A stretch of 27,844 nucleotides of DNA from a virus, in the IMG/VR virus record IMGVR_UViG_3300045284_000142, positions 1 to 27,844 of that record, one strand, 5' to 3'. Both the position numbers and the translations under genes were made by a program. The notes beneath the pieces are model-generated. The model made no database searches and had not been told where the DNA came from. It worked only from the letters and a program-made list of their open reading frames with translations. Positions 12,455 through 27,227 of this stretch are shown in pieces (the stretch's first letter is position 1; the number at the start of each line of letters is the position of its first letter).

Positions 12455-12486
12455 GTCGGCTTCAGGAAATTCCCAAAGATTTGCGC

Positions 12487-12521
12487 TTGCAATCTGCGAG
12501 CGCATCGGGTAATTTTACCCG
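12487..12521 (+). promoter_or_regulatory. Early promoter 1 with overlapping palindromic operator
   Basis: TTGCAA (12487-12492) and TAATTT (12510-12515) are separated by exactly 17 bp, a good sigma70-type layout. The -10 box lies inside a perfect inverted repeat, CGGGTAA-TT-TTACCCG (12506-12521). A dimeric repressor bound there would block RNA polymerase. Transcription would start near 12522, leaving a 5' leader of ~75 nt before the SSB-like gene. The 13-bp core GGGTAATTTTACC is identical at promoter 2. Confidence 0.68.
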
Positions 12522-12570
12522 CAGTAAGCAACCCGTTGCGGCCCCGACGAACGTAGGGCGGACGGCAAAC

Positions 12571-12586
12571 AAACGATAACGAAAGG
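12571..12586 (+). promoter_or_regulatory. Early-gene leader element, copy 1
   Basis: AAACGATAACGAAAGG ends 9 bases before the ATG at 12596. The final AAAGG could serve as a weak Shine-Dalgarno sequence; the preceding A-rich ACGATAACGA part recurs before other early genes. Confidence 0.5.
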
Positions 12587-12595
12587 TTAGAAATT

Positions 12596-13492
12596 ATGGC
12601 GAAGAATTTGTATCACTCAGCGCTCGTGAAGCTGGGGCAGGTAATGGTGACCGTCAAAAGTGACGTGCTCAAATCCCAGTTCCCCAACAAACCCGATTAT
12701 GTCGTGATGGAGATCAATGGGGAAGATTTCAACTATACTACCGAGAACGACGCATGCGCGGAGTTTTTCCGTGGCCAGAAAGGCGCGACGATGGCTCTTT
12801 CCGCCGAAGGCCGCAAGGAGGAGGCGGCGCTGACGTATCTGGGGGACACCGTGGACAGCATCAGTCACCGGAACCTGCCGCCGAAACAGGCGGCAGCCCC
12901 GGCGAAACCGGCCGCGGGCGGACCGCCCCAGAGGCGTCAGGAGCCTCCCGGGGGGCAGAAAGGGGCGGCCCCCCCTGCCAAAGCGGCGGAAACCGGGCAG
13001 CCCGTAGCGGGAAACAAGCCTCCCGTCCAGGGTCAGGCGGCGAACGGGAAGCCGCCGCCGCAGCCGGTCAAGACCCCGGCTGAGCGATTGGCTGGGGCCA
13101 AGGTCCATGCCAACAAGGTGGCGAACCTCTACCTTGTCGCGCATCAGGCGGCAAAGTTTGCTCGGGACCAGATCAAGATTCAGTGCGGGGACGAGCTTTC
13201 AGCCGAGGAATTTCAAGGCATGAAAATGAATATCTGCATCCAGCTTGAAAAGGACGGCCATCTTGCCGGGATGCCGACGGGCGTCTTGTCGCTGGCCAAG
13301 GCGGCAGCGAAACCGGCAGCCCCGGCGAGTGGCCCGGACCCTGACGCGGCAGCGGCAGCCGAAGCCGAGGCGCGGGCGGCGGAGCGGGCAGCGGGCGAAG
13401 CGGCAGCCGCAGCCGAACGGGCGCGGGTAGCCGAGGCGCAGCGGCTGGCGGCGGAACGGGCGGAAGAGGAAGCCGCTGGGGTTCCCTTCTGA
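12596..13492 (+). CDS. Putative SSB-like early protein
   Basis: The first gene of the early block encodes 298 residues. The N-terminal ~90 residues are beta-rich (VMVTVKSDVLKSQ, YVVMEINGEDFNYTT, GATMALSAEGR) and could be an OB fold. A long Pro/Ala/Gly-rich disordered linker follows, a second compact part lies at ~160-235 (FARDQIKIQCGDELSAEEF), and the Ala/Glu-rich end finishes EEEAAGVPF. Bacterial single-strand DNA-binding proteins end in an acidic tip with a final PF (DDDIPF) that recruits replication partners, so this tip, the linker and the context with helicases suggest an SSB analogue. The fold is not proven. Start: ATG with AAAGG and the leader element upstream. Confidence 0.82.
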   Translation: MAKNLYHSALVKLGQVMVTVKSDVLKSQFPNKPDYVVMEINGEDFNYTTENDACAEFFRGQKGATMALSAEGRKEEAALTYLGDTVDSISHRNLPPKQAAAPAKPAAGGPPQRRQEPPGGQKGAAPPAKAAETGQPVAGNKPPVQGQAANGKPPPQPVKTPAERLAGAKVHANKVANLYLVAHQAAKFARDQIKIQCGDELSAEEFQGMKMNICIQLEKDGHLAGMPTGVLSLAKAAAKPAAPASGPDPDAAAAAEAEARAAERAAGEAAAAAERARVAEAQRLAAERAEEEAAGVPF

Positions 13493-13507: not shown

Positions 13508-13530
13508 AAACGATCACGACAACGAAACGA
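13508..13530 (+). promoter_or_regulatory. Early-gene leader element, copy 2
   Basis: An extended A-rich variant, AAACGATCACGACAACGAAA followed by CGA, fills most of the 43-bp gap before the ATG at 13536. No Shine-Dalgarno sequence is present, so this element is the only visible initiation context. Confidence 0.45.
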
Positions 13531-13535
13531 AAACT

Positions 13536-15454: not shown

Positions 15455-16333
15455 ATGAACGAACCTAGCATCAAAGAACTTCTGGAGTCGGCAGAGTATC
15501 TAATCAAAGACGGCTCACCAATGTTTGCAGTCCCGGACCTGCACCGGGCGCTGCGGCAGCTTGCCGCAAAAGTCGAATCGCTGGAGCAGGACGCGGTTGC
15601 GGCGGGGCGCGCTTACGTGACGCCGCCGCGGCAGTGCCTGGGTTGCGGCGGTTCCGGTGTGCTCGTTAACCCTGAGAGAGTATGCCCTTCCTGTTACGGA
15701 ACAGGATCATCGGATACAACCGCGCCGCCCGATGACGGCACGCTGATTCGCACAGCGGCAAACAAACTGACGCAAGGGGGCGCTCCGCCCGAGGCGCAGC
15801 AGGCCAACTGCCCTGGGTGCGGAGCTGAACCCGGATCTTACCACGAAAGGGGGTGCCGAGAAATCGGGTATAGCCCCGCGTTGGACCGGCCCGAGGCGCA
15901 GCAGGAGCAGGCGGCGCAGCCGTTGCGGATGCCGGAGCCTCACTACCAAGTCGAGGTTTATCACGCTGGCTGTGACAAGTGCGGCGATGGCAAAACCTGG
16001 GCAATTTTCGAGGACGGGATTGCCGGGGGAACATCATTCTCCGAGGAAGGCGAAGCAATCGAGCAGTGCGATGAGTTGAATGAGGCTTACTTTGCCGGGG
16101 TTGCCTCTGTCGCCGCCGAGCTGGCCCGCCTCCGGGATGCGCTGCGGTGGCGGGACGCGGGGAAAGAAAAGCCGACCGATACCGCGAGGGTTATCTGTTT
16201 GTGGAAGGATGACCCAATGGTGATTCTGGCAAGATGGTCTGAGCCTGAGAAGCGGTGGATGAATCAAGCTACGGCGTTTTCGCCGGACTACTGGCTTCTG
16301 CTGCCGCCGCGGCCGCAGCAGGAGACACCATGA
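15455..16333 (+). CDS. DnaJ-type zinc-finger / DUF551-like protein
   Basis: I start it at ATG 15455, which has GGAG five bases upstream, two bases after the previous stop. The 292-residue protein has paired CxxCxGxG units as in DnaJ: CLGCGGSG (C61, C64) and CPSCYGTG (C77, C80). Another CPGC and CDKC-type pair follow (NCPGCGAEPG, AGCDKCGDG). The C-terminal ~55 residues (PTDTARVICLWKDD to YWLLLPPRP) resemble DUF551, a small domain common in phage proteins. The combination suggests zinc-stabilised modules, perhaps for protein or nucleic-acid contact, but no J domain is present. The TGA stop overlaps the helicase ATG (ATGA at 16330). Confidence 0.8.
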   Translation: MNEPSIKELLESAEYLIKDGSPMFAVPDLHRALRQLAAKVESLEQDAVAAGRAYVTPPRQCLGCGGSGVLVNPERVCPSCYGTGSSDTTAPPDDGTLIRTAANKLTQGGAPPEAQQANCPGCGAEPGSYHERGCREIGYSPALDRPEAQQEQAAQPLRMPEPHYQVEVYHAGCDKCGDGKTWAIFEDGIAGGTSFSEEGEAIEQCDELNEAYFAGVASVAAELARLRDALRWRDAGKEKPTDTARVICLWKDDPMVILARWSEPEKRWMNQATAFSPDYWLLLPPRPQQETP

Positions 16334-18039
16334 CCGCCATTGGGGCAACGATAACGAAAATGAAAGCCATCGAAACATTCACCGAAGTTCAGCGCGGCAT
16401 CATCGAGTCAGTCTACTCAAACAACATCGTGCTCAGTTGCCCGGGCTCAGGCAAGACATCCGTCCTTGTGGCCCGCATCAGGCATCTGCTGGAGCAAGGC
16501 GTCCCGCCATCGGAAATCGTCGCAATCACATTCACCAACTCGGCATCAAGTGTCATCGTGGAGCGCCTCGGAGACTGCCGCCTTTCATTTGTGGGGACCA
16601 TCCATGCCTACCTGTTCCGGTTGCTGCGGCTGCACGGGCGCGAGATTTACGCGCTCCCGGATAAGCTCACCGTTTTGGATGACGAGCAGTGTTCCGCGCT
16701 CATCAAGGACGTTCGGCACGACCTTAAAATTAAGGTGTCCGTCACGGAGATTCGCAACACACTGCTCGATCTGTGGTGGGGCCGACTGGAGCTTGACGCC
16801 GTGCCGACCGTGACGCGGCCGCTGGTCAATGAGATCACGCGTCGGATGATTGCGAACGGCTTCTTTTCTTACGATGCGATTCTGGCCCTGGGCGCAAAGC
16901 TGGTGGACCGGCTATCCGAAACGTTGGAGCCGGGGCGCGTGTTGCTCCTAGATGAAGGCCAGGATTGCTCGGTCGCCGTCGCCGGCATCATTGATACGTT
17001 GCCGTTCCCGGAAAAGTTCATTGTGGCCAGTCTCGATCAGGCCATTTTTAGCTTCATCGGCGGCGACCCGGGATGGTGCGTCACGCTGGCCAACTCGCCC
17101 GAATATCAGACTTGGGTCATGGCTTCAAACTTCAGGTGCGACGCGATGATTTGCCAATTTGCTAACCGGCTCATGTCGCACGGGCTGCGGCCGCAGGAGC
17201 CCATGGAATCAGTAACGGGTGGCACGGGCAGCGTCGAAGTCTATCAGGATTTCGAGGATGACTCTGCGGAATACGCGATGGTGGCCCGCGAGATTCAGTT
17301 GCATCTGGATGCAGCCGGGGACGAGCCGTTCTCTTGCGCCGTCCTGTGCCGGACGCGGCAACTGGTGTCTGCGGTCACGGATGCGTTGCGGCAGCATGGC
17401 GTCCCGGTCAAGCCGAGCGTTGGCGACAATGACGCGGCCTGGACGCAAATGAAACGGTTCGTCGCGCTGCTGGCCAATCCGCAATCGGACGAGCTGGCCT
17501 ACTGGTTTCTCCGCGTGAGATTTGGGAGCGACTACGCCGACCGGGCGCGGCACTCGGCCGCGCAAGCGTTCCAGAGCATTAACGATTATCATCTCCAGAT
17601 TCCCGTCGGCCTGGGGCCAGGCGACATCCGAGGCCAGATGCAGTTCGCCGGGGTGCGCCAGTCAATCGACAACTGGATGCGTGTCGAGGAACTGATACGG
17701 GTGCACCTGACCCCGGAATCGACCCTGTCGGATTTGCTGGTCGTGATGGAGCGGGACACGCCGCAGGAATTGGTCACAGCCGAGGGGGTTACGGTGTGCA
17801 CGATCCATGCCGCCAAGGGGCGCGAGTTCGACACGGTGTTTCTGCCTGCGCTGGACGATGGGATTTATCCGATTAGCGGCGAGGATCCGGAAGAATCCCG
17901 CCGACTCCTGTTCGTCGGCCTGACCCGCGCCCGTTGCCGTTGCGTGCTGTCCACCGCGCAGATGCGGCCGCCGCAGTGGGGCAACGGGCGCCCGGTTGCC
18001 GCGGCGCCGAGCCGGTTCATTGCGGAGTTGACAGCTTGA
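16330..18039 (+). CDS. UvrD/PcrA-type superfamily 1 DNA helicase
   Basis: All core SF1A helicase motifs are visible: Q-motif-like TEVQRG, Walker A GSGKT (K42), Ia AITFTNSAS, GTIHAYL, motif II DEGQD (D208, E209), motif III ASLDQAIFSFIGGDP, motif IV region SNFRCD, motif V TIHAAKGREFDTVFLPAL, and motif VI RRLLFVGLTRAR. It would unwind DNA 3'-5' using ATP. At 569 residues it is shorter than UvrD (~720), mainly in the accessory 1B/2B domains. Start: ATG 16330 has GGAG five bases away and overlaps the upstream stop; ATG 16360, in frame, directly follows the CAACGATAACGAAA element and is the alternative. Promoter 2 lies just beyond its end, with the -35 box inside its last codons. Confidence 0.93.
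   Translation: MTAIGATITKMKAIETFTEVQRGIIESVYSNNIVLSCPGSGKTSVLVARIRHLLEQGVPPSEIVAITFTNSASSVIVERLGDCRLSFVGTIHAYLFRLLRLHGREIYALPDKLTVLDDEQCSALIKDVRHDLKIKVSVTEIRNTLLDLWWGRLELDAVPTVTRPLVNEITRRMIANGFFSYDAILALGAKLVDRLSETLEPGRVLLLDEGQDCSVAVAGIIDTLPFPEKFIVASLDQAIFSFIGGDPGWCVTLANSPEYQTWVMASNFRCDAMICQFANRLMSHGLRPQEPMESVTGGTGSVEVYQDFEDDSAEYAMVAREIQLHLDAAGDEPFSCAVLCRTRQLVSAVTDALRQHGVPVKPSVGDNDAAWTQMKRFVALLANPQSDELAYWFLRVRFGSDYADRARHSAAQAFQSINDYHLQIPVGLGPGDIRGQMQFAGVRQSIDNWMRVEELIRVHLTPESTLSDLLVVMERDTPQELVTAEGVTVCTIHAAKGREFDTVFLPALDDGIYPISGEDPEESRRLLFVGLTRARCRCVLSTAQMRPPQWGNGRPVAAAPSRFIAELTA
16346..16359 (+). promoter_or_regulatory. Early-gene leader element, copy 3 (inside the helicase N-terminus)
   Basis: CAACGATAACGAAA stands immediately before an in-frame ATG at 16360, thirty bases inside the annotated helicase gene. 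It is identical to the core of the copy at 23931 apart from a 3-base insertion there, and suggests a second start point. Confidence 0.45.
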
Positions 18040-18060
18040 TGAAATAGGGGTAATTTTACC
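18028..18060 (+). promoter_or_regulatory. Early promoter 2 with the shared operator core
   Basis: A consensus -35 box TTGACA (18028-18033), a 17-bp spacer and TAATTT (18051-18056) form a strong sigma70-like promoter. GGGTAATTTTACC (18048-18060) is the same 13 bases found at promoter 1, with a GGTAA-TT-TTACC dyad over the -10. The predicted transcription start (~18063-18065) lies at the ATG at 18066, so the mRNA would be leaderless or nearly so. Confidence 0.72.
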
Positions 18061-18065
18061 GCACG

Positions 18066-20108
18066 ATGACGACAACGATTGAAATTGATGGGCTCCTGAA
18101 ATGGAGCGCTCCAAAACGCGTCGAGACCAAGGCCGGTCCCCGCATGCTTCGCAAAGCCGCGCCGACCGAAACATTTTGGGCCGCATGGCGCAGCGGCAAG
18201 GAAGCGCTCAAAGCTGCTGGCGTCTCCTGCTCCCGCGAGCAGGACGGCAACTGGTCCGCGTGCTGGTGGCAGCCGCTCACCGGGGCGGATGCGGCGGTTG
18301 CCGTCGCGCAACATGAGCGCAAGGCTGAAGCAATCGAAGTGAGCCGGGCAACTGATGCGGCGGTCGAGATCCCGAGGCCGGACGGGTGCGAGTATCTCGG
18401 CTATCAAAAGGCCGGAGTGGCATACGCGCAGTCGGCTTATCGCGCGGGATTCTCCGGTGTCCTCATCGGAGATGAAATGGGATTGGGCAAGACAATTCAG
18501 GCGGTCGGGCTAATCAACGCGGAGCCGAGCATCGGGCGCGTGATCGTGGTTTGCCCGAATACGCTTAAGGAAAATTGGAGACGCGAACTGACAAAATGGC
18601 TGGTCCGTCCGCTCAAGGTCGCGGTGCAATATGCGGGCCGACCTTGGGTAGGGAGCGTGGCTGATATCGTCATCCTTAATTTCGACATCGTGGGAAAATT
18701 TGCGAATCAGATCGGGGAAACCAAATGGGACTTGCGCGTTGTGGACGAAGCGCACAAATGCAAAAACCCGAAGGCCGCGCGCACAAAGGCGACGCTCGGG
18801 ATTCAGGCGACACGGAAGCTGCTCCTGACCGGGACACCGATTCTCAACCGGCCTGTGGAGCTTTGGCCGCTCATCTCGGATTGTGACCCGGTCGCATGGG
18901 CCCCGAAGAAAGGTTTTTTCCGGTTCGCGAAAAAATACTGCGCAGCGGTCCAGAACGGATACGGATGGGACTTTTCTGGATCGAGCAACTCCGCCGATCT
19001 GCAAACCCGGTTGCGCTCAACGATCATGGTGCGTCGGATGAAAGCGGACGTGTTGACGGAGCTGCCGGCAAAGCGCCGGCAAGTCATCGAGCTACCGGTG
19101 AACGGTGACGCGGGGCTTGTGACCGCGGAGAATGACGCATGGGCCGCGCGGCAATCGGGCATGGATGAACTATCCGCCCGGGTGGCGCTGGCCAAAGCCA
19201 GCGAGGACCGCGGCGAATATGAGGCGGCCGTGGATGCGCTCCGGGCCGGTCAAGGCGCGGCATTTGCGGAGATGGCCAAAGCCCGGCATGACGTGGCAAT
19301 GGCCAAGGTCCCGCACGTGATCAGTTTCATCGAGGACGCTCTGGAGTCGGGTAAAGTTATTTTATTCGCGCATCACCTGGACGTTGTGGCGCGATTCAAA
19401 GCGCAGTTTCCGCAGGCTGCGGTTGTAACCGGGGAAACGAAAACCGAGAATCGTCAGGGTGAAGTTGACAGATTTCAGAACGATCCGGCCTGCAATCTTT
19501 TTATCGGCAACGCGGCAGCGCAGGAAGGGTTAACGCTGACTGCGTCGAGTCACGTGATATTCGCGGAGAGCGACTGGACGCCCGGAGCGCTGTCGCAGCG
19601 CGAGGATCGAGCGCACCGAATCGGGCAAAAGAACAGCGTGCTCGTGACGCACCTTGTTCTTGAGGGTTCGCTGGATTCCCACATGCTCAAGACGGTAATT
19701 GCGAAGCAGGAAGTCATCGACAAGTGCCTGGACCGGGACGCGGGGCCGTTGGCAGCCGAGCCGATGCTGATTGAGGCCGGGCCGGTCAAAAGCGCGGTGA
19801 CGATCACCTACGAGCAGGTAGCGGAGCAAGCGGCGTTAATCAGCCCGGAGCTTTGCCGCCTGGCGCACGAAGGAATGAAGCGACTCGCCGGAGTCTGCGA
19901 CGGGGCGCTGAATCGGGACGGAGCGGGGTTCAGCGGCGTGGACGTGCGGATCGGCCACAGCTTCGCGCGGCAAGGCAGCCTGAGCCAGAAGCAGGCAGTC
20001 CTGGCGGCGCGGCTGTGCGTCAAGTATCAGCGGCAGCTCGGGGCCGAATTTGTGGAACCGTTTCGCTTGCTTTGCGGCAAGGAAGCTGGTATCAGTGGCG
20101 GCAAGTAA
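18066..20108 (+). CDS. Snf2/SMARCAL1-like SF2 ATPase
   Basis: The 680-residue protein has a complete Snf2 core. Walker A is DEMGLGKT (residues 136-143), motif II DEAH (227-230), motif III LLTGTP, then a RecA2 domain with ILFAHH, NAAAQEGLTL and motif VI QREDRAHRIGQ (511-521). Relatives (SMARCAL1/ZRANB3 and phage analogues) anneal or remodel DNA at stalled forks. A C-terminal extension of ~120 residues (GVDVRIGHSFARQG, LSQKQAVLAARLCVKYQRQL) recalls a domain I have seen at the end of other phage helicases and is probably a DNA-contact module. An upstream N-terminal part of ~90 residues precedes the core. The gene starts directly at promoter 2 with no Shine-Dalgarno sequence. Confidence 0.93.
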   Translation: MTTTIEIDGLLKWSAPKRVETKAGPRMLRKAAPTETFWAAWRSGKEALKAAGVSCSREQDGNWSACWWQPLTGADAAVAVAQHERKAEAIEVSRATDAAVEIPRPDGCEYLGYQKAGVAYAQSAYRAGFSGVLIGDEMGLGKTIQAVGLINAEPSIGRVIVVCPNTLKENWRRELTKWLVRPLKVAVQYAGRPWVGSVADIVILNFDIVGKFANQIGETKWDLRVVDEAHKCKNPKAARTKATLGIQATRKLLLTGTPILNRPVELWPLISDCDPVAWAPKKGFFRFAKKYCAAVQNGYGWDFSGSSNSADLQTRLRSTIMVRRMKADVLTELPAKRRQVIELPVNGDAGLVTAENDAWAARQSGMDELSARVALAKASEDRGEYEAAVDALRAGQGAAFAEMAKARHDVAMAKVPHVISFIEDALESGKVILFAHHLDVVARFKAQFPQAAVVTGETKTENRQGEVDRFQNDPACNLFIGNAAAQEGLTLTASSHVIFAESDWTPGALSQREDRAHRIGQKNSVLVTHLVLEGSLDSHMLKTVIAKQEVIDKCLDRDAGPLAAEPMLIEAGPVKSAVTITYEQVAEQAALISPELCRLAHEGMKRLAGVCDGALNRDGAGFSGVDVRIGHSFARQGSLSQKQAVLAARLCVKYQRQLGAEFVEPFRLLCGKEAGISGGK

Positions 20109-20150
20109 TCACTTGGGCCGTAAGAAAGCTCAAAGCAAAATCGCAAGTGA
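20109..20150 (+). repeat. 7-bp inverted repeat after the Snf2 gene
   Basis: TCACTTG (20109-20115) and CAAGTGA (20144-20150) are perfect complements separated by 28 bases, starting right after the Snf2 stop codon. It could be an operator or a hairpin foot. T-rich sequence (ACTTTAATTTTG) follows, but a matching -35 box at the right distance is not seen. Confidence 0.35.
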
Positions 20151-20159
20151 ACTTTAATT

Positions 20160-20242
20160 TTGTCCGTCGTTGGTTGCGTGCCGCAAGGCCGGAGGGTGCC
20201 GCGAGCTTCCCCGAATTTCTTAGCGCAACCGGCGGCGGACGA
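20160..20242 (+). ncRNA. Candidate structured RNA with a 20-bp stem
   Basis: Bases 20160-20179 pair without interruption with 20223-20242: fifteen Watson-Crick pairs and five G-U pairs in the + strand RNA. The 43-base interior can fold into GCC-GCAA-GGC (20180-20189, a GNRA tetraloop hairpin) and a second hairpin spanning 20191-20212 (GGAGGG side against CTTCCCC), giving a three-way junction. The region contains no convincing gene. It ends 14 bases before the ATG of the replication initiator. Possible roles are a cis-regulatory leader, an attenuator, a primer RNA or an independent small RNA. The G-U pairs would be mismatches in single-stranded DNA or minus-strand RNA, favouring a + strand RNA. 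Confidence 0.6.
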
Positions 20243-20256
20243 TTCTTTTCCGCGCA

Positions 20257-20979
20257 ATGAGCATAAGAATAATGTCAAACGTTTGGGCTGATCACTCAAT
20301 CAAAAGCAGATCGGAGTTGCTGGTGTTATTGGCACTCGCGGACTTCTCAGGAGACGATAAGCCAGCATTCCCAAGCATCGACACGCTGGCCATGAAATCG
20401 CGATGCACTCAAAGAGGGGTCCAGAAGGTTCTGGCGAGGCTTATTGCCGATTCCAAACTTGTAATTGAATACGGGAAAGGTCCATCGGGAACCAATCTTT
20501 ACAGTGTTATCTGGGGGGGGGTGAACGGCGTTCACCCCGAACCGAGCGTTCCCAAAAAGGAACCGAAAAAGGGAACGGTGGGTTCACCCAATCCGTCAGG
20601 AAGCGTCAGGAACGGTCATGAAACAGATACCCCCTTAATCCCCCACATGGGGGAAATGATTCCAAGGGGAAGGAAACCTCCGCCAAGAAACAGGCAACCG
20701 AAACCGGAGGCATCCCCGGAGAGGCGGGCGGAAGAGAAGCTGCGGCTCGGGAAACTGTTTGGCCGGCGCCAGTCAACAATCTGGTCGGCTAAGGAGTTGA
20801 AAGCGTGGAAGGAGATCAGCCCGATTGACGAAGAGGACTTTCAATCGGTCGAGCGTTACTACGGCGCAAGCATCCCTGCGGATAAGAATTACCGGCGGCG
20901 CGACCTTCAAACGCTTCTGAATAATTTCTCGGGCGAAGTGGACCGGGCGCGCACATGGAAAGAGCCAAACCCGTGGTAG
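20257..20979 (+). CDS. Winged-helix replication initiator-like protein
   Basis: The N-terminal ~90 residues form a helix-turn-helix/winged-helix domain of the phage replication-protein type: SRSELLVLLALADFSGDD, AFPSIDTLAMKSRCTQRG, VQKVLARLIADSKLVIEYG. A disordered Pro/Lys-rich linker (~88-160) follows. The C-terminal domain (~165-240) has KLFGRRQSTIWSAKELKAW and YRRRDLQTLLNNFSGEVDRA, a pattern I associate with phage initiators that load the helicase. Position directly before the primase-helicase gene supports a role in origin recognition. The linker-coding DNA carries dyads and direct repeats, as in phage lambda O where the origin is inside the initiator gene. No strong RBS precedes the ATG; the structured RNA lies just upstream. 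Confidence 0.85.
   Translation: MSIRIMSNVWADHSIKSRSELLVLLALADFSGDDKPAFPSIDTLAMKSRCTQRGVQKVLARLIADSKLVIEYGKGPSGTNLYSVIWGGVNGVHPEPSVPKKEPKKGTVGSPNPSGSVRNGHETDTPLIPHMGEMIPRGRKPPPRNRQPKPEASPERRAEEKLRLGKLFGRRQSTIWSAKELKAWKEISPIDEEDFQSVERYYGASIPADKNYRRRDLQTLLNNFSGEVDRARTWKEPNPW
20513..20653 (+). other. Candidate replication origin inside the initiator gene
   Basis: Dense symmetry occupies the linker-coding part. A run of nine G (20513-20521) leads into GGGGTGAAC-GGC-GTTCACCCC (20518-20538, perfect 9-bp arms). CGTTCCC (20547-20553) is inverted as GGGAACG (20571-20577) around two A5 runs. GTTCACCC recurs at 20582-20589. CGTCAGGAA repeats directly at 20594 and 20604. CCCCCA-CA-TGGGGG (20640-20653) closes the region. 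Lambdoid phages carry origin iterons at the same place in their initiator genes, which makes this the best origin candidate here. Confidence 0.5.
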
Positions 20980-20997: not shown

Positions 20998-22839
20998 ATG
21001 CGGACTGACCAGCTATCCATGCCGCGCAAGACCGCGGAGAAACTGGCCGCACCCGCTGTCCCCGGTCACCGGCACGAGGAGGCGCTGGCAATCGCCTATT
21101 CCCTGATTGGGGAAGGATGGGCCCCTGGCGACGTGTTCCTTGAGTTGCGCGCAAAATATCCCGATGACGTTACCGACCATGAACTGCGGTCATTGATTAA
21201 CGGCGCGGTGCGTAAGGGGCCGGTCCCCACAATCGGCAACGGTGCTCGGAACGGCGGCGCCTGGCATCCGATAGCGATGCGCGACAAGCCGAAGGTCGAA
21301 GTTTCGCCGGCTGACAAAGTCAAATGGTGGGTGTCCGGGGCCGAGGTGTCCGCGGAACAATTCTCGGCCGGCAGCCCGGCGGGAGTTGCGGGGCTTGGTG
21401 CGGTGGATGCGACCGTGCTTCTTTTCGAGTCGCTCTATGCTGCTGGAGATCGGGTGAACCTCGTGACTTTGTTTACGCAGACGGAATCCAAAACGAGTCC
21501 GCTCGGTGGCGGTAAAACCATGACGCGGCAATCGTGGGTGGATTACTTTCGAAAAAATGGGATACCGCAGAGCGACGCTGGAGCGTGGATGCGTCCCAAC
21601 CCTTGCGCTATGGCCGGGAGCGGCAAGGACGGCGCGATAACGGACAGCGACATTGTGCGGCTCGAGTTTTTGCTCCTGGAATCGGACAGCTTGCCGCTGC
21701 CGTTTCAACTGGCGCTTTATGCGCGGCTGAAACTTCCAATTGCCGCTGTGCTGCTAAGCGGCGGGAAAAGCGCTCATGCGTGGGTGAGGTTGGGCGCTCC
21801 GAACAAGGAAGCTTACGACGAATCCGCGGCGAAGATTTTCGCCGCGCTTGCTCCATTCGGGATTGATGCCGGTAACAAAAACCCGTCGCGGTTGTCGCGG
21901 TTGCCGGGGGCCGTGCGCAAGATCGGCGCGGTTAACGGTGGCGAGCAGCGGTTGCTGTGGCTGAATCCTAAGGCGTCGGCCTTAACGGCTGATGGGTTGG
22001 CAATGTTCGAGCAATCGCTGAAGGTGCCAGCGATTCAGGAAAAGCCGCTGCATTCGCTGATGGCTGATTCAATGGACCGATACAACGATCTTGTGGCCAA
22101 TCGCGGCAAGCTGGGACTGGCAACCGGTATCGCTGGCTTCGACATGGACACAGGCGGTTTGAAGCCTGGGAATTTTATTGTCATCGCAGGCGAGACAGGA
22201 GGCGGGAAAAGTTCACTGGCCCTGAACTGGATCAACACCGCGTTGCTGGCGCAAGTGGGCGTCGCCTACTTTTCGCTCGAAATGGATAGGGAAGAGATTT
22301 GCGATTTTCTGGTTTCGCTTAACTGCGGGGTGGACCGAAACCTTTTCAACACTGGCCGATTTGGAGATGACGACATCCGTAAAATTTCGGAGTGCCTTGC
22401 ATGGCTGAAAGATTTGCCGCTGTGGATTTTTGATTCGGCCATCATCAGCGTCGAAGAAATTCGAAGCGCGGTGACTCTGCTCAACGCTGAAAATAAAATC
22501 GGGCTGGTGGTTGTGGATTACGTGCAACTTGTGGCGGCATCCGATGCCCGGGAAGTGAGGGAGCAGCAAGTGGCAGGCATTGCAACCGGGCTTCGGGCTG
22601 TGGCGAAGGACTCGAAGCTGCCGCTGGTGGCGTTGTCTCAACTGAACGAGGACGGGAAGCTGCGCGAGTCGCGGGTGATAGCGCACGCAGCGAATGTGAT
22701 GATCATGATTGATTCCCTGGAAGCTAAGGGGGACCACTGCCCGAAAATGAAGGTAGTGAAGGGGCGCCGGATCAAAAAGAAATCCTACGACCTGGTGTTT
22801 GATGCGGTGCGTTGCCGGTTGTCGAGCGCTGCGCCATGA
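20998..22839 (+). CDS. Primase-like / DnaB-type replicative helicase fusion
   Basis: The 613-residue protein combines three parts. Residues ~22-75 (EEALAIAYSLIGEGWAPGD to LRSLINGAVRKG) resemble a PriCT-like helical domain. Residues ~215-310 look like an archaeo-eukaryotic primase core: ESD (E228, D230) after hydrophobic strands, GGKSAHAWVRL (H260), and RLSRLPG (R298, R301). Residues ~365-613 are a DnaB/RecA-type helicase: FDMDTGGLKPGNFIVIAG, Walker A GETGGGKSS (K404), Walker B VVVDYVQL (D507), and VALSQLNEDGKLRES. So priming and unwinding may be in one chain, as in T7 gp4, but with a different primase type. Catalytic activity of the primase part is not assured from motifs alone. Its TGA overlaps the next ATG. 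Confidence 0.9.
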   Translation: MRTDQLSMPRKTAEKLAAPAVPGHRHEEALAIAYSLIGEGWAPGDVFLELRAKYPDDVTDHELRSLINGAVRKGPVPTIGNGARNGGAWHPIAMRDKPKVEVSPADKVKWWVSGAEVSAEQFSAGSPAGVAGLGAVDATVLLFESLYAAGDRVNLVTLFTQTESKTSPLGGGKTMTRQSWVDYFRKNGIPQSDAGAWMRPNPCAMAGSGKDGAITDSDIVRLEFLLLESDSLPLPFQLALYARLKLPIAAVLLSGGKSAHAWVRLGAPNKEAYDESAAKIFAALAPFGIDAGNKNPSRLSRLPGAVRKIGAVNGGEQRLLWLNPKASALTADGLAMFEQSLKVPAIQEKPLHSLMADSMDRYNDLVANRGKLGLATGIAGFDMDTGGLKPGNFIVIAGETGGGKSSLALNWINTALLAQVGVAYFSLEMDREEICDFLVSLNCGVDRNLFNTGRFGDDDIRKISECLAWLKDLPLWIFDSAIISVEEIRSAVTLLNAENKIGLVVVDYVQLVAASDAREVREQQVAGIATGLRAVAKDSKLPLVALSQLNEDGKLRESRVIAHAANVMIMIDSLEAKGDHCPKMKVVKGRRIKKKSYDLVFDAVRCRLSSAAP

Positions 22840-23930: not shown

Positions 23931-23950
23931 CAACGATAACAACGAAAGGA
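23931..23950 (+). promoter_or_regulatory. Early-gene leader element, copy 5
   Basis: CAACGATAACAACGAAAGGA ends five bases before the ATG at 23956. AAAGGA is a fair Shine-Dalgarno sequence; the upstream ACGATAACAACGA part repeats the shared motif with one extra AAC. Confidence 0.55.
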
Positions 23951-23955
23951 TAAAA

Positions 23956-24333: not shown

Positions 24334-24539
24334 GGCCGCGCCGTCACTTCCCGGCTGCGGAAGCGGTGGCGATGCTGCCAAGGAAGCAGGCGCTGCCGCA
24401 TCCGTGGCAAAAAGGATTCCCCAATAATTCACGGTTGAGAGTCTTAAAAGAGGCCGCTGAATTGCGGCTGGAAACTGCGGCAAAAATACCGCTTGCAACC
24501 GCAGCCGGTAGCGGGCACAGTGATCGCACGAAACGATAA
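24330..24539 (+). CDS. Doubtful small ORF with GTG start
   Basis: GTG at 24330 overlaps the previous stop as GTGA, the normal coupling pattern, and the frame runs 69 residues to TAA at 24537. The product is basic and Ala-rich (MLPRKQALPHPWQKGF, LRVLKEAAELRLETAAKI). No family is recognised. The final codons coincide with the leader element before the next gene, so the frame could simply be open by chance. If it is not real, this 200-bp stretch is untranslated leader. Confidence 0.4.
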   Translation: MRPRRHFPAAEAVAMLPRKQALPHPWQKGFPNNSRLRVLKEAAELRLETAAKIPLATAAGSGHSDRTKR

Positions 24540-24544
24540 AGAGA
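24531..24544 (+). promoter_or_regulatory. Early-gene leader element, copy 6
   Basis: AAACGATAAAGAGA directly abuts the ATG at 24545. It keeps AAACGATAA and replaces the second half by AGAGA. No separate Shine-Dalgarno site is correctly spaced for this ATG. Confidence 0.42.
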
Positions 24545-25228
24545 ATGAGCGATTCAAAAAATTCGGAATGGTTCTCCAATGTCACGAAAACTCGAGGAGC
24601 AACCGTGAACGATAAGCATCCCATCGCAGACCTGTTAGAGCGCCTCGCCGGCGGTATGTGCCACTACCCCGATGCGCTCAGGTTCGAGCACCGATTCAGC
24701 CCCGCGTCGGCAACGTTGACCGTTCGCGCTCACGCTGCCGACACGTCGCGCCTGATTGGTGAAGGTGGAAAAAACTATCAGGCATTGCGGACGCTGATGC
24801 AGGCAGCCGGGGCGCGGCGCGGGCTCAGTGTTACTCTGGCGCGGTTCATGGAGCCGGTCACCGGGCAGCCGGAACGGCACTCGGCAACCATGACTGAGAA
24901 TCCAGACTGGCCACGAGAGAAGCTGATTCGGTTGCTGCGCGACACGCTGGACGCAGTGTTCGAGTTTAGCGACCGGATCGAAGTAGCCGAGTATCCCGAG
25001 GCAACCGCGGCCATGACAACGTTCGAGGTTTACATTTCGCCGCTTGAAAAGCCTGATCTATACGACCTGCTTAAAGAACCGCTATGGCGCATCTTTGACG
25101 CGATCGGGCGCCGTCACGGGCGCGTGCTCAACGTGACGGTGGCGACGGCGAAGGTGACGCGGCCTGAGTCAATGGAGCGGCAACCAAAGACGGCAGCGGG
25201 CCGGTTCAGCGGCGAGGTGGGGCGATGA
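24545..25228 (+). CDS. KH-domain RNA-binding protein, KhpA-like, with a second KH-like unit
   Basis: The first half contains a KhpA-type KH domain: ATLTVRAHAADTSRLIGEGG followed by KNYQALRTLMQAAGA, with the GxxG loop at residues 72-75 (GEGG). KH domains of this class bind single-stranded RNA. A second region (TTFEVYISPLEKPDLYDLL, LWRIFDAIGRRHGRVLNVTV) has the same strand-helix-strand layout but no GxxG, so it looks like a degenerate copy. The KhpA itself is ~80 residues; this is 227. Start is uncertain: ATG 24545 follows the leader element, while GTG 24605 has a strong GAGGAG five bases upstream and would remove 20 residues. KH proteins are unusual in phage early regions. Stop overlaps the next ATG. 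Confidence 0.83.
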   Translation: MSDSKNSEWFSNVTKTRGATVNDKHPIADLLERLAGGMCHYPDALRFEHRFSPASATLTVRAHAADTSRLIGEGGKNYQALRTLMQAAGARRGLSVTLARFMEPVTGQPERHSATMTENPDWPREKLIRLLRDTLDAVFEFSDRIEVAEYPEATAAMTTFEVYISPLEKPDLYDLLKEPLWRIFDAIGRRHGRVLNVTVATAKVTRPESMERQPKTAAGRFSGEVGR

Positions 25229-25472: not shown

Positions 25473-25816
25473 AACTGTTCCCTCTGCCTGGCGACGTGGA
25501 CCCCGTAGCCGGTGAACCGCTGCGCTACATGGTGCGGTCACGGACGCGGCGGGGGCAAAAGTTTCTCGTGGACCTTGGCGAGTGGGGCGCGCATGGAATT
25601 TGCAGCTGCGAGCATTTCGAGTATCGGTTGCTGCCGCAGTTGCGGGCCGACCGTGACGCGGGGGCCGTGCTGGTGTATCGGCGCTGCTGGCACATTCGGC
25701 AAGCACTGGACTTTCACGCGGCGCTTTCGGTTCGCGTCATCGCAGCAACGTTAGCAAAACGACAACGATCGAATGACAGACAACCTTACGAAACCATCGG
25801 CGGCCGCGCGGCCTGA
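25469..25816 (+). CDS. SWIM zinc-finger protein
   Basis: The 115-residue protein has the SWIM pattern CxCx(n)CxH: C45 and C47 in GICSCEHFEYR, then C73 and H75 in RRCWHIRQAL, with a strand VRSRTRRGQKFLVDLGEW before it. SWIM domains bind DNA or proteins and are known partners of Swi2/Snf2 ATPases in bacteria and eukaryotes. Here the next gene is a Snf2-type ATPase, overlapped by 44 bp, so a working pair is likely. The start at 25469 is coupled to the micro-ORF. The C-terminal ~25 residues (ATLAKRQRSNDRQPYE) overlap the start of the helicase gene and may be of little structural importance. Confidence 0.8.
   Translation: MKLFPLPGDVDPVAGEPLRYMVRSRTRRGQKFLVDLGEWGAHGICSCEHFEYRLLPQLRADRDAGAVLVYRRCWHIRQALDFHAALSVRVIAATLAKRQRSNDRQPYETIGGRAA
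25756..25772 (+). promoter_or_regulatory. Early-gene leader element, copy 7
   Basis: AAAACGACAACGATCGA directly precedes ATG 25773 inside the end of the SWIM gene. No Shine-Dalgarno sequence is seen for this start. Confidence 0.42.
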
Positions 25817-27227
25817 CGCGGGCGGCTATGCCGCGTTCCTGGACCGCAAGGCGCAGATCGGGACGCGCAGCGGGTTCGCGCCAATCTGGATGCCGGACTT
25901 CCTTTTCGACTTCCAGAAATCGCTCGTGGAGTGGGCGCTGCTCAAAGGCAAGGCTGCGATCATTGCTGACTGCGGGCTCGGGAAATCCCCGATGGAATTG
26001 GTGTGGGCCGAGAACGTGCGGCGGAAAACGAACAAGCCGACGCTGATTCTTTCCCCGTTGGCTGTGTCGAATCAAATGGTGCGTGAGGCGGAAAAGTTTG
26101 GCATCGAATGCAAACGCAGCAATGACGGCACGGTCCACCCAAACATCACAACGACAAACTATGAGCGGTTGCACCTGTTTAACCCGGACGATTGGGGCGG
26201 CGTGGCGTGTGATGAGTCTTCGATACTCAAGAATTTTACCGGGCAGCGCAAGAAAGACATCACGCGATTTATGAGCAAGGTTCAGTATCGGTTGCTCGGA
26301 ACCGCGACCGCTGCCCCGAATGATTTCGTGGAACTGGGGACGTCATCTGAGGCGCTCGGAGAGCTTCCTTACATGGATGTGCTTCAGCGGTTTTTTGTGG
26401 ATGACAAAGACCGCAAGGGCTCGGACAAGCCCGGGGCGGCCAGTTACAGCAAGGAGCGGCAGGCAGCCCGCGTGCATGGTTACTGGAGGCTCAAGGGGCA
26501 TTCTGAATCGGCGTTCTGGCGCTGGGTCTGCTCGTGGGCGCGAGCGTGCCGCAAGCCTTCGGACTTGGGATTCAGCGACGACCAGTTCAAGCTTCCGCCG
26601 CTGATCGTGAACGAAACAAAGATCAAGAACGAGAAGCCGTTGCCCGGCGAGATGTTCATCTGGAAAGCCGTGTCACTGGCGGATCAACGGACTGAGTTGC
26701 GGGCCACGTTACAGCAACGGTGCGAGATGGTGGCTGAGCTTTGCGCGCAGCATCCGGTGTCGGTTCTTTGGTGCGACCTGAACGACGAAGGGGACCTGCT
26801 CGAAAAGATAATCCCTGGCGCGGTCCAGATTGCCGGCAAGGATTGCGACGAAGCCAAGGAGGAAAAGTTTGAGGCGTTTCTTTCTGGAAAGATTAAGCGA
26901 CTCGTGACAAAGGGTAAAATTGCGGGGTTTGGCCTGAACCTTCAGCTCTGCAATCACACGACATTTTTCCCGAGCCATTCGTGGGAAAAATATTACCAGA
27001 GCGTCCGAAGATTCTGGAGGTTCGGGCAAAAGAAGCCGGTCTATGTGGACATCGTAACGACTGAAGGCGAGGCTGGAGTTCTCCAAAACCTGCAACGGAA
27101 ATCGGCGCAAGCTGATAAGATGTTTGATCGGTTGGTGGCCAGCATGAACGAATCTTTGAACATCGAACGGAACGGCAAACAACAATCCTCAATCGAAATT
27201 CCATCATGGATCACCCAAAGCAACTAA
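25773..27227 (+). CDS. Second Snf2-like SF2 ATPase, phage type
   Basis: This 484-residue protein is a compact helicase of a kind common in phages. It has FDFQKSLVEWALLKG, Walker A ADCGLGKS (K71, S72), LILSPLAVSNQMVREAEKFG, a motif II of the form CDESS (D147, E148) in place of DEAH, and LLGTATAAPNDFVELGTSSE as motif III. The second lobe has VTKGKIAGFGLNLQLC and YYQSVRRFWRFGQKKPV. It would act as a DNA translocase. It differs strongly from the ATPase at 18066 and lies beside a SWIM protein and a DNA methyltransferase, which overlaps its end by 22 bp. Such helicase-methyltransferase pairs recur in phages and may modify or protect phage DNA. Confidence 0.92.
   Translation: MTDNLTKPSAAARPDAGGYAAFLDRKAQIGTRSGFAPIWMPDFLFDFQKSLVEWALLKGKAAIIADCGLGKSPMELVWAENVRRKTNKPTLILSPLAVSNQMVREAEKFGIECKRSNDGTVHPNITTTNYERLHLFNPDDWGGVACDESSILKNFTGQRKKDITRFMSKVQYRLLGTATAAPNDFVELGTSSEALGELPYMDVLQRFFVDDKDRKGSDKPGAASYSKERQAARVHGYWRLKGHSESAFWRWVCSWARACRKPSDLGFSDDQFKLPPLIVNETKIKNEKPLPGEMFIWKAVSLADQRTELRATLQQRCEMVAELCAQHPVSVLWCDLNDEGDLLEKIIPGAVQIAGKDCDEAKEEKFEAFLSGKIKRLVTKGKIAGFGLNLQLCNHTTFFPSHSWEKYYQSVRRFWRFGQKKPVYVDIVTTEGEAGVLQNLQRKSAQADKMFDRLVASMNESLNIERNGKQQSSIEIPSWITQSN

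Follow-up and report, generated by a model that had tools for sequence, protein, structure and literature searches.

What does an uninterrupted 20-bp RNA stem do when it lies directly ahead of a phage replication initiator gene? The window analysed here, the whole 27,844-base stretch of an IMG/VR virus record (G+C 59%), carries phage tail genes and a DNA-replication block in which the UvrD-like, SNF2, initiator and DnaB-like genes all lie co-directionally on the + strand (Table 1). The stem occupies the 148-nt gap before the initiator (20109-20256). A sequence-only reading had called this the only long gap between replication genes, which holds for the SNF2 helicase, initiator and DnaB genes; elsewhere the window has a 141-nt gap at 12455-12595 and a 211-nt gap at 24334-24544. 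We place the initiator start at ATG 20257, because an in-frame stop lies upstream at 20221 and an MSxxIMSxVW-type start is shared by initiator homologues. The same stop rules out the element as coding sequence.

Table 1. Features of the replication block and of the element ahead of the initiator gene (window coordinates)
Feature	Position	Strand	Basis or remark
UvrD-like helicase gene	16255-18039	+	replication block
SNF2-type helicase gene, upstream of stem	18066-20108	+	
A+T-richer stretch, helicase stop to stem	20109-20159	+	sequence
5' arm of 20-bp stem	20160-20179	+	
GCC-GCAA-GGC hairpin, GNRA loop	20180-20189	+	sequence, predicted fold
Second imperfect apex hairpin	20190-20213	+	predicted fold
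Unpaired linker, contains stop codon 20221 in frame with initiator	20214-20222	+	predicted fold
3' arm of 20-bp stem	20223-20242	+	
TTCTTTT run directly 3' of stem; U-tract of intrinsic-terminator-like element	20243-20249	+	
Lambda-O-like replication initiator gene	20257-20979	+	HTH_36; PHROG replication initiation families
Inverted-repeat cluster inside initiator gene	20518-20585	.	repeats seen in sequence
Primase-like/DnaB-like helicase gene	20998-22839	+	18 nt behind initiator

Structure of the element

The two arms form 20 uninterrupted pairs, 15 Watson-Crick and five G-U, exactly where the sequence-only reading had put them; in order, the pairs are TA TG GC TA CG CG GC TG CG GC TG TG GC GC TA TA GC CG GC TG. 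Eleven of the 20 are G-C, all five G-U pairs have their U on the 5' arm, and 17 pairs have a predicted pair probability of 0.99-1.0 in their sequence context. The whole element spans 83 nt and its branched apex 43 nt. The GNRA-capped hairpin described earlier is present in the apex, as is the second hairpin, although the fold places the latter at 20190-20213 rather than at 20191-20212. The distance from the end of the stem to the initiator ATG is 14 nt, as had also been noted.

RNA from the + strand is predicted to fold considerably better (minimum free energy, MFE, −46.8 kcal/mol) than RNA from the − strand (−33.5 kcal/mol), in which the five U-G pairs become A-C mismatches. Any action of the element would therefore be that of + strand RNA. 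It is present in a single copy in the window and no terminal duplication was seen by eye, which rejects a multicopy repeat. No Rfam covariance model matched at its gathering score anywhere in the window, and a tRNA, a tmRNA and a known Rfam RNA or riboswitch were rejected as identities for the element, whose Rfam matches were weak chance hits to microRNAs alone (E 0.47 and 5.1).

Stem length and chance

The stem is the longest uninterrupted one on either strand of the window, the next reaching 16 bp. None of 60 whole-window shuffles contained a stem of 20, and when the 148-nt gap was shuffled 20,000 times a 20-bp stem arose once, which bears out the earlier judgement that such a length is unlikely by chance. 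The 83-nt element on its own has a z-score of −4.4. For the 156-nt region around the stem, whose folding against shuffled controls had been suggested as a check, the energy was only mildly low (z −1.63; 12 of 200 shuffles scored as well), and an equal or lower MFE occurs in several coding windows. For these two reasons it is the length of the stem, and not its energy, that we take as evidence for the element, and on stem length it is more than chance.

A U-rich tract bordering the stem

The TTCTTTT run that follows the stem is absent from the sequence-only reading. It occupies one of just 35 equally T-rich seven-base positions on the + strand of the window, and the element is the one place on either strand where a stem of at least 10 bp (apex of at most 60 nt) is followed by at least six T in seven bases. 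Across 1000 whole-window shuffles, both strands included, the longest stem beside such a run was 15 bp. A stem without any function could draw on the mildly low folding energy of the region and on the fact that no conservation could be demonstrated for the stem, but the rarity of 20-bp stems in local shuffles, together with a window-wide frequency of stem plus T-run below 1 in 1000 shuffles, makes it barely credible.

Intrinsic terminators are built in this way, as a stem followed by a U-run. Here the hairpin is stable and G+C-rich (20 bp, 11 G-C pairs, −46.8 kcal/mol) and the U-rich tract follows directly, but at 83 nt, with its branched 43-nt apex, it is not compact: the TransTermHP criteria call for a loop of 3-13 nt and a hairpin of at most 59 nt (PMC12207403), and among terminators mapped by Term-seq the median loop length is 4 nt (PMC12207403). 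Because of its size we do not class the element as a canonical terminator, while keeping the view that it works like one. A d'Aubenton-Carafa-type score falls just under zero (d = −4.0). A terminator scan with a short-loop limit did not list the element, because that scan permits short loops only. Stem-loops inside clostridial ABC-importer operons terminate with efficiencies of 20.7-96.1% (PMC9045158), and their stems are longer and GC-rich, with fewer U's than in canonical terminators (PMC9045158). We tentatively read the element, with a little less than even confidence, as a putative internal intrinsic terminator or attenuator of the transcript for the replication initiator.

Transcription through the element

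No sigma-70-type promoter was found in 19500-20700 on either strand, with a consensus that may not be that of the host. A −10-like TTTAAT at 20153-20158 has no matching −35, and a weak promoter in 20109-20159 is possible. The 14 nt between the stem and the ATG leave no room for a promoter, so that polymerase would have to cross the element, or its 3' part at the least, for the initiator to be expressed at all. Control of the initiator in cis, one of the roles first proposed, is accordingly the best reading by position, strand and anatomy, since the genes are co-directional, no promoter fits after the stem and the U-run follows it directly.

Under partial termination, RNA polymerase coming from the helicase genes, or from the weak promoter in 20109-20159, would transcribe the element. 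The two small inner hairpins would probably fold first and bring the arms together, after which the 20-bp stem would zip; the final fold is the one seen in silico, and such an order of folding could shorten the effective loop. The stem would be complete as UUCUUUU is made, and a fraction of the polymerases would stop at about 20249, before the ATG. The initiator and the DnaB-like helicase would then be encoded on read-through transcripts alone; their messages would be scarcer than that of the upstream helicase or would depend on antitermination.

As a separate observation, the 13-mer GGGTAATTTTACC, an inverted repeat (GGTAA-TT-TTACC), has exactly two copies, at 12507-12519 and 18048-18060, in the gaps upstream of the genes that begin at 12596 and 18066. 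It is possibly a repressor operator. A third + strand copy of its core, TAATTTT, lies at 20155-20161 and overlaps the start of the stem.

Other roles for the stem

The main rival to termination is processing by RNase III. The host enzyme would cut the duplex, separate the helicase and initiator messages and leave the initiator mRNA with a new 5' end. Such a site has at least about 20 bp of unbroken duplex in a transcript, and the stem offers this, some two helical turns between co-directional cistrons, but cleavage leaves the adjacent T-run unexplained. We consider this reading unlikely, while giving it real weight; it is compatible with partial termination and inseparable from it here.

A rather improbable alternative is a translational leader. 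The stem would lie immediately beyond the footprint of the ribosome and either shield the initiator mRNA at its 5' end or regulate access to the start. The 14-nt spacing fits such a role, and so do the structured initiator leaders of the distant phages described below. Hiding of a Shine-Dalgarno site by the stem is nevertheless ruled out, since the initiator has none to hide, and the predicted openness of the start region is nearly equal with or without the stem (mean 0.50-0.59). Most genes in the window are without a strong Shine-Dalgarno site. An A-rich element like AACGAAAGGNTA occurs at 12578-12589, 13521-13532, 23941-23952 and 24527-24538, before genes that lie behind gaps, and these genes have it in place of a strong Shine-Dalgarno site; it is possibly a translation-start signal of the host.

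In truncated transcripts, 20098-20103 is predicted to pair with 20178-20183, and the 5' arm might belong by turns to the terminator stem and to a putative pairing with the helicase gene's end. The element would then be a regulated switch (a riboswitch, a protein-bound leader or ribosome-controlled attenuation), for which the branched apex and GNRA loop could be a binding site. We find this doubtful, because the complete stem is strongly favoured in fold prediction and Rfam offers no match.

More doubtful still is a small regulatory RNA, an antisense-controlled copy-number leader, or a DNA or primer-RNA element of the replication origin. The stem does adjoin the initiator gene, and a small RNA could equally end in the U-run. 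Yet these readings are opposed by the absence of a sigma-70-type promoter on either strand in 19500-20700, as scanned with a consensus that may not suit the host, and by the poorer fold of the − strand. They are also opposed by the inverted repeats inside the initiator gene, which would be a likelier candidate origin than the stem; in phage lambda, origin repeats likewise lie inside the initiator gene O. On these grounds neither the small RNA nor the primer RNA first suggested for this locus has gained positive evidence.

Relatives and the leaders of distant phages

Searches of viral contigs with the stem arm (exact) and the initiator N-terminus (degenerate) gave no close relative, and the initiator, SNF2, DnaB, UvrD-like and tail proteins had nothing close there either. 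The DnaB-like protein had nothing close in bacterial genomes, nor did blastn and tblastn find anything close among phages and plasmids. With no homologue found in these collections and no Rfam family match, the proposal of a new structured RNA, in the sense of a conserved class, is unsupported. The helicase at 25773-27227 is widespread in viral contigs (122 matches at up to 76% identity; L026) and is the sole gene of the window with a close relative there, a pattern of strong mosaicism. In the searched records behind these second-helicase matches, initiator, SNF2 and tail genes are missing or represented by remote matches only.

In two distant phage records, L006 (record G003) and L005 (record G002), an HTH_36 initiator likewise follows an SNF2 helicase. 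L006 has promoter matches of 12/12 and 11/12 and, after them, a long hairpin with GUUUUUU at its end, a short distance ahead of the initiator's ribosome site, a feature that speaks for the terminator reading of the element here. The region L006:7720-7925 holds two near-perfect tandem promoter matches, repeated TAGTTATATA elements and then the U-run hairpin before the initiator, and it looks like an operator plus attenuator leader. In L005, a leader lies between a 10/12 promoter match and the ribosome site of the initiator, just before AAAGGAG (L005:7398-7535; z −6.7), an unclassified three-way junction with two long hairpins. In a ranking of gaps by structure, made after the folds had been seen, the initiator gap came second of 17 in L006 (z −6.1), second of 13 in L005, in the part covered by ORF calling (z −3.0), and first of the four called in the window (z −2.0), where it falls behind 24334-24544 if that gap is counted. 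The latter (211 nt, if its small ORFs are not genes) is strongly structured on both strands (z about −2.6 to −3.8) and may be partly coding.

Neither distant leader has sequence similarity to the element, and most other initiator homologues lie directly behind the upstream gene, with little or no leader. These findings support the view that initiator leaders can be strongly structured when present, with no homology implied. We think it improbable that phages with the SNF2 helicase-HTH_36 initiator pair repeatedly carry a large branched leader as a regulated switch (ligand-, protein- or translation-controlled attenuation), of which the element would be an unclassified example. The gene at 24545-25228 encodes a phage protein that has no match in PHROGs and contains a KH RNA-binding domain of the KhpA/KhpB type (E 4e-11); that it might be an RNA-binding partner for structured leaders is purely speculative.

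Comparison with known systems

The terminator tR1 of phage lambda is Rho-dependent and lies before cII. Like the element, it precedes an O-type initiator within an early operon whose genes are co-directional, but it differs in its dependence on Rho and in its position further upstream. The early mRNA of phage T7 carries intercistronic RNase III sites, which resemble the element in placing some 20 bp of duplex between early genes of the same direction. Unlike those sites, the duplex here has a U-run directly after it, and cleavage of it is putative.

Like the element, the internal terminators of clostridial ABC-importer operons (PMC9045158) lie between co-directional genes and consist of a stem-loop whose U-tract is imperfect and whose stem is long and GC-rich; they also have a downstream gene reached by read-through only, which is putative here. 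Their hairpins range from −38.3 to −10.1 kcal/mol (PMC9045158), in contrast to the 83-nt hairpin here, with its branched 43-nt apex and MFE of −46.8. In the rep attenuators of plasmids pT181 and pIP501, too, the leader of the initiator gene contains a terminator-like structure (PMC5703833), but these attenuators have no sequence relation to the element and are switched by a counter-transcribed RNA (PMC5703833); neither such an RNA nor, on either strand of 19500-20700, a sigma-70-type promoter for one was found here.

Significance

The element is of a known kind, a terminator-like hairpin, with an unusual shape, and branched hairpins of this sort are missed by terminator finders that limit loop size. 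It bears on how phages outside the model systems dose their replication initiators. A stop signal that leaves the initiator and the replicative helicase to read-through would be a simple and testable form of dosage control.
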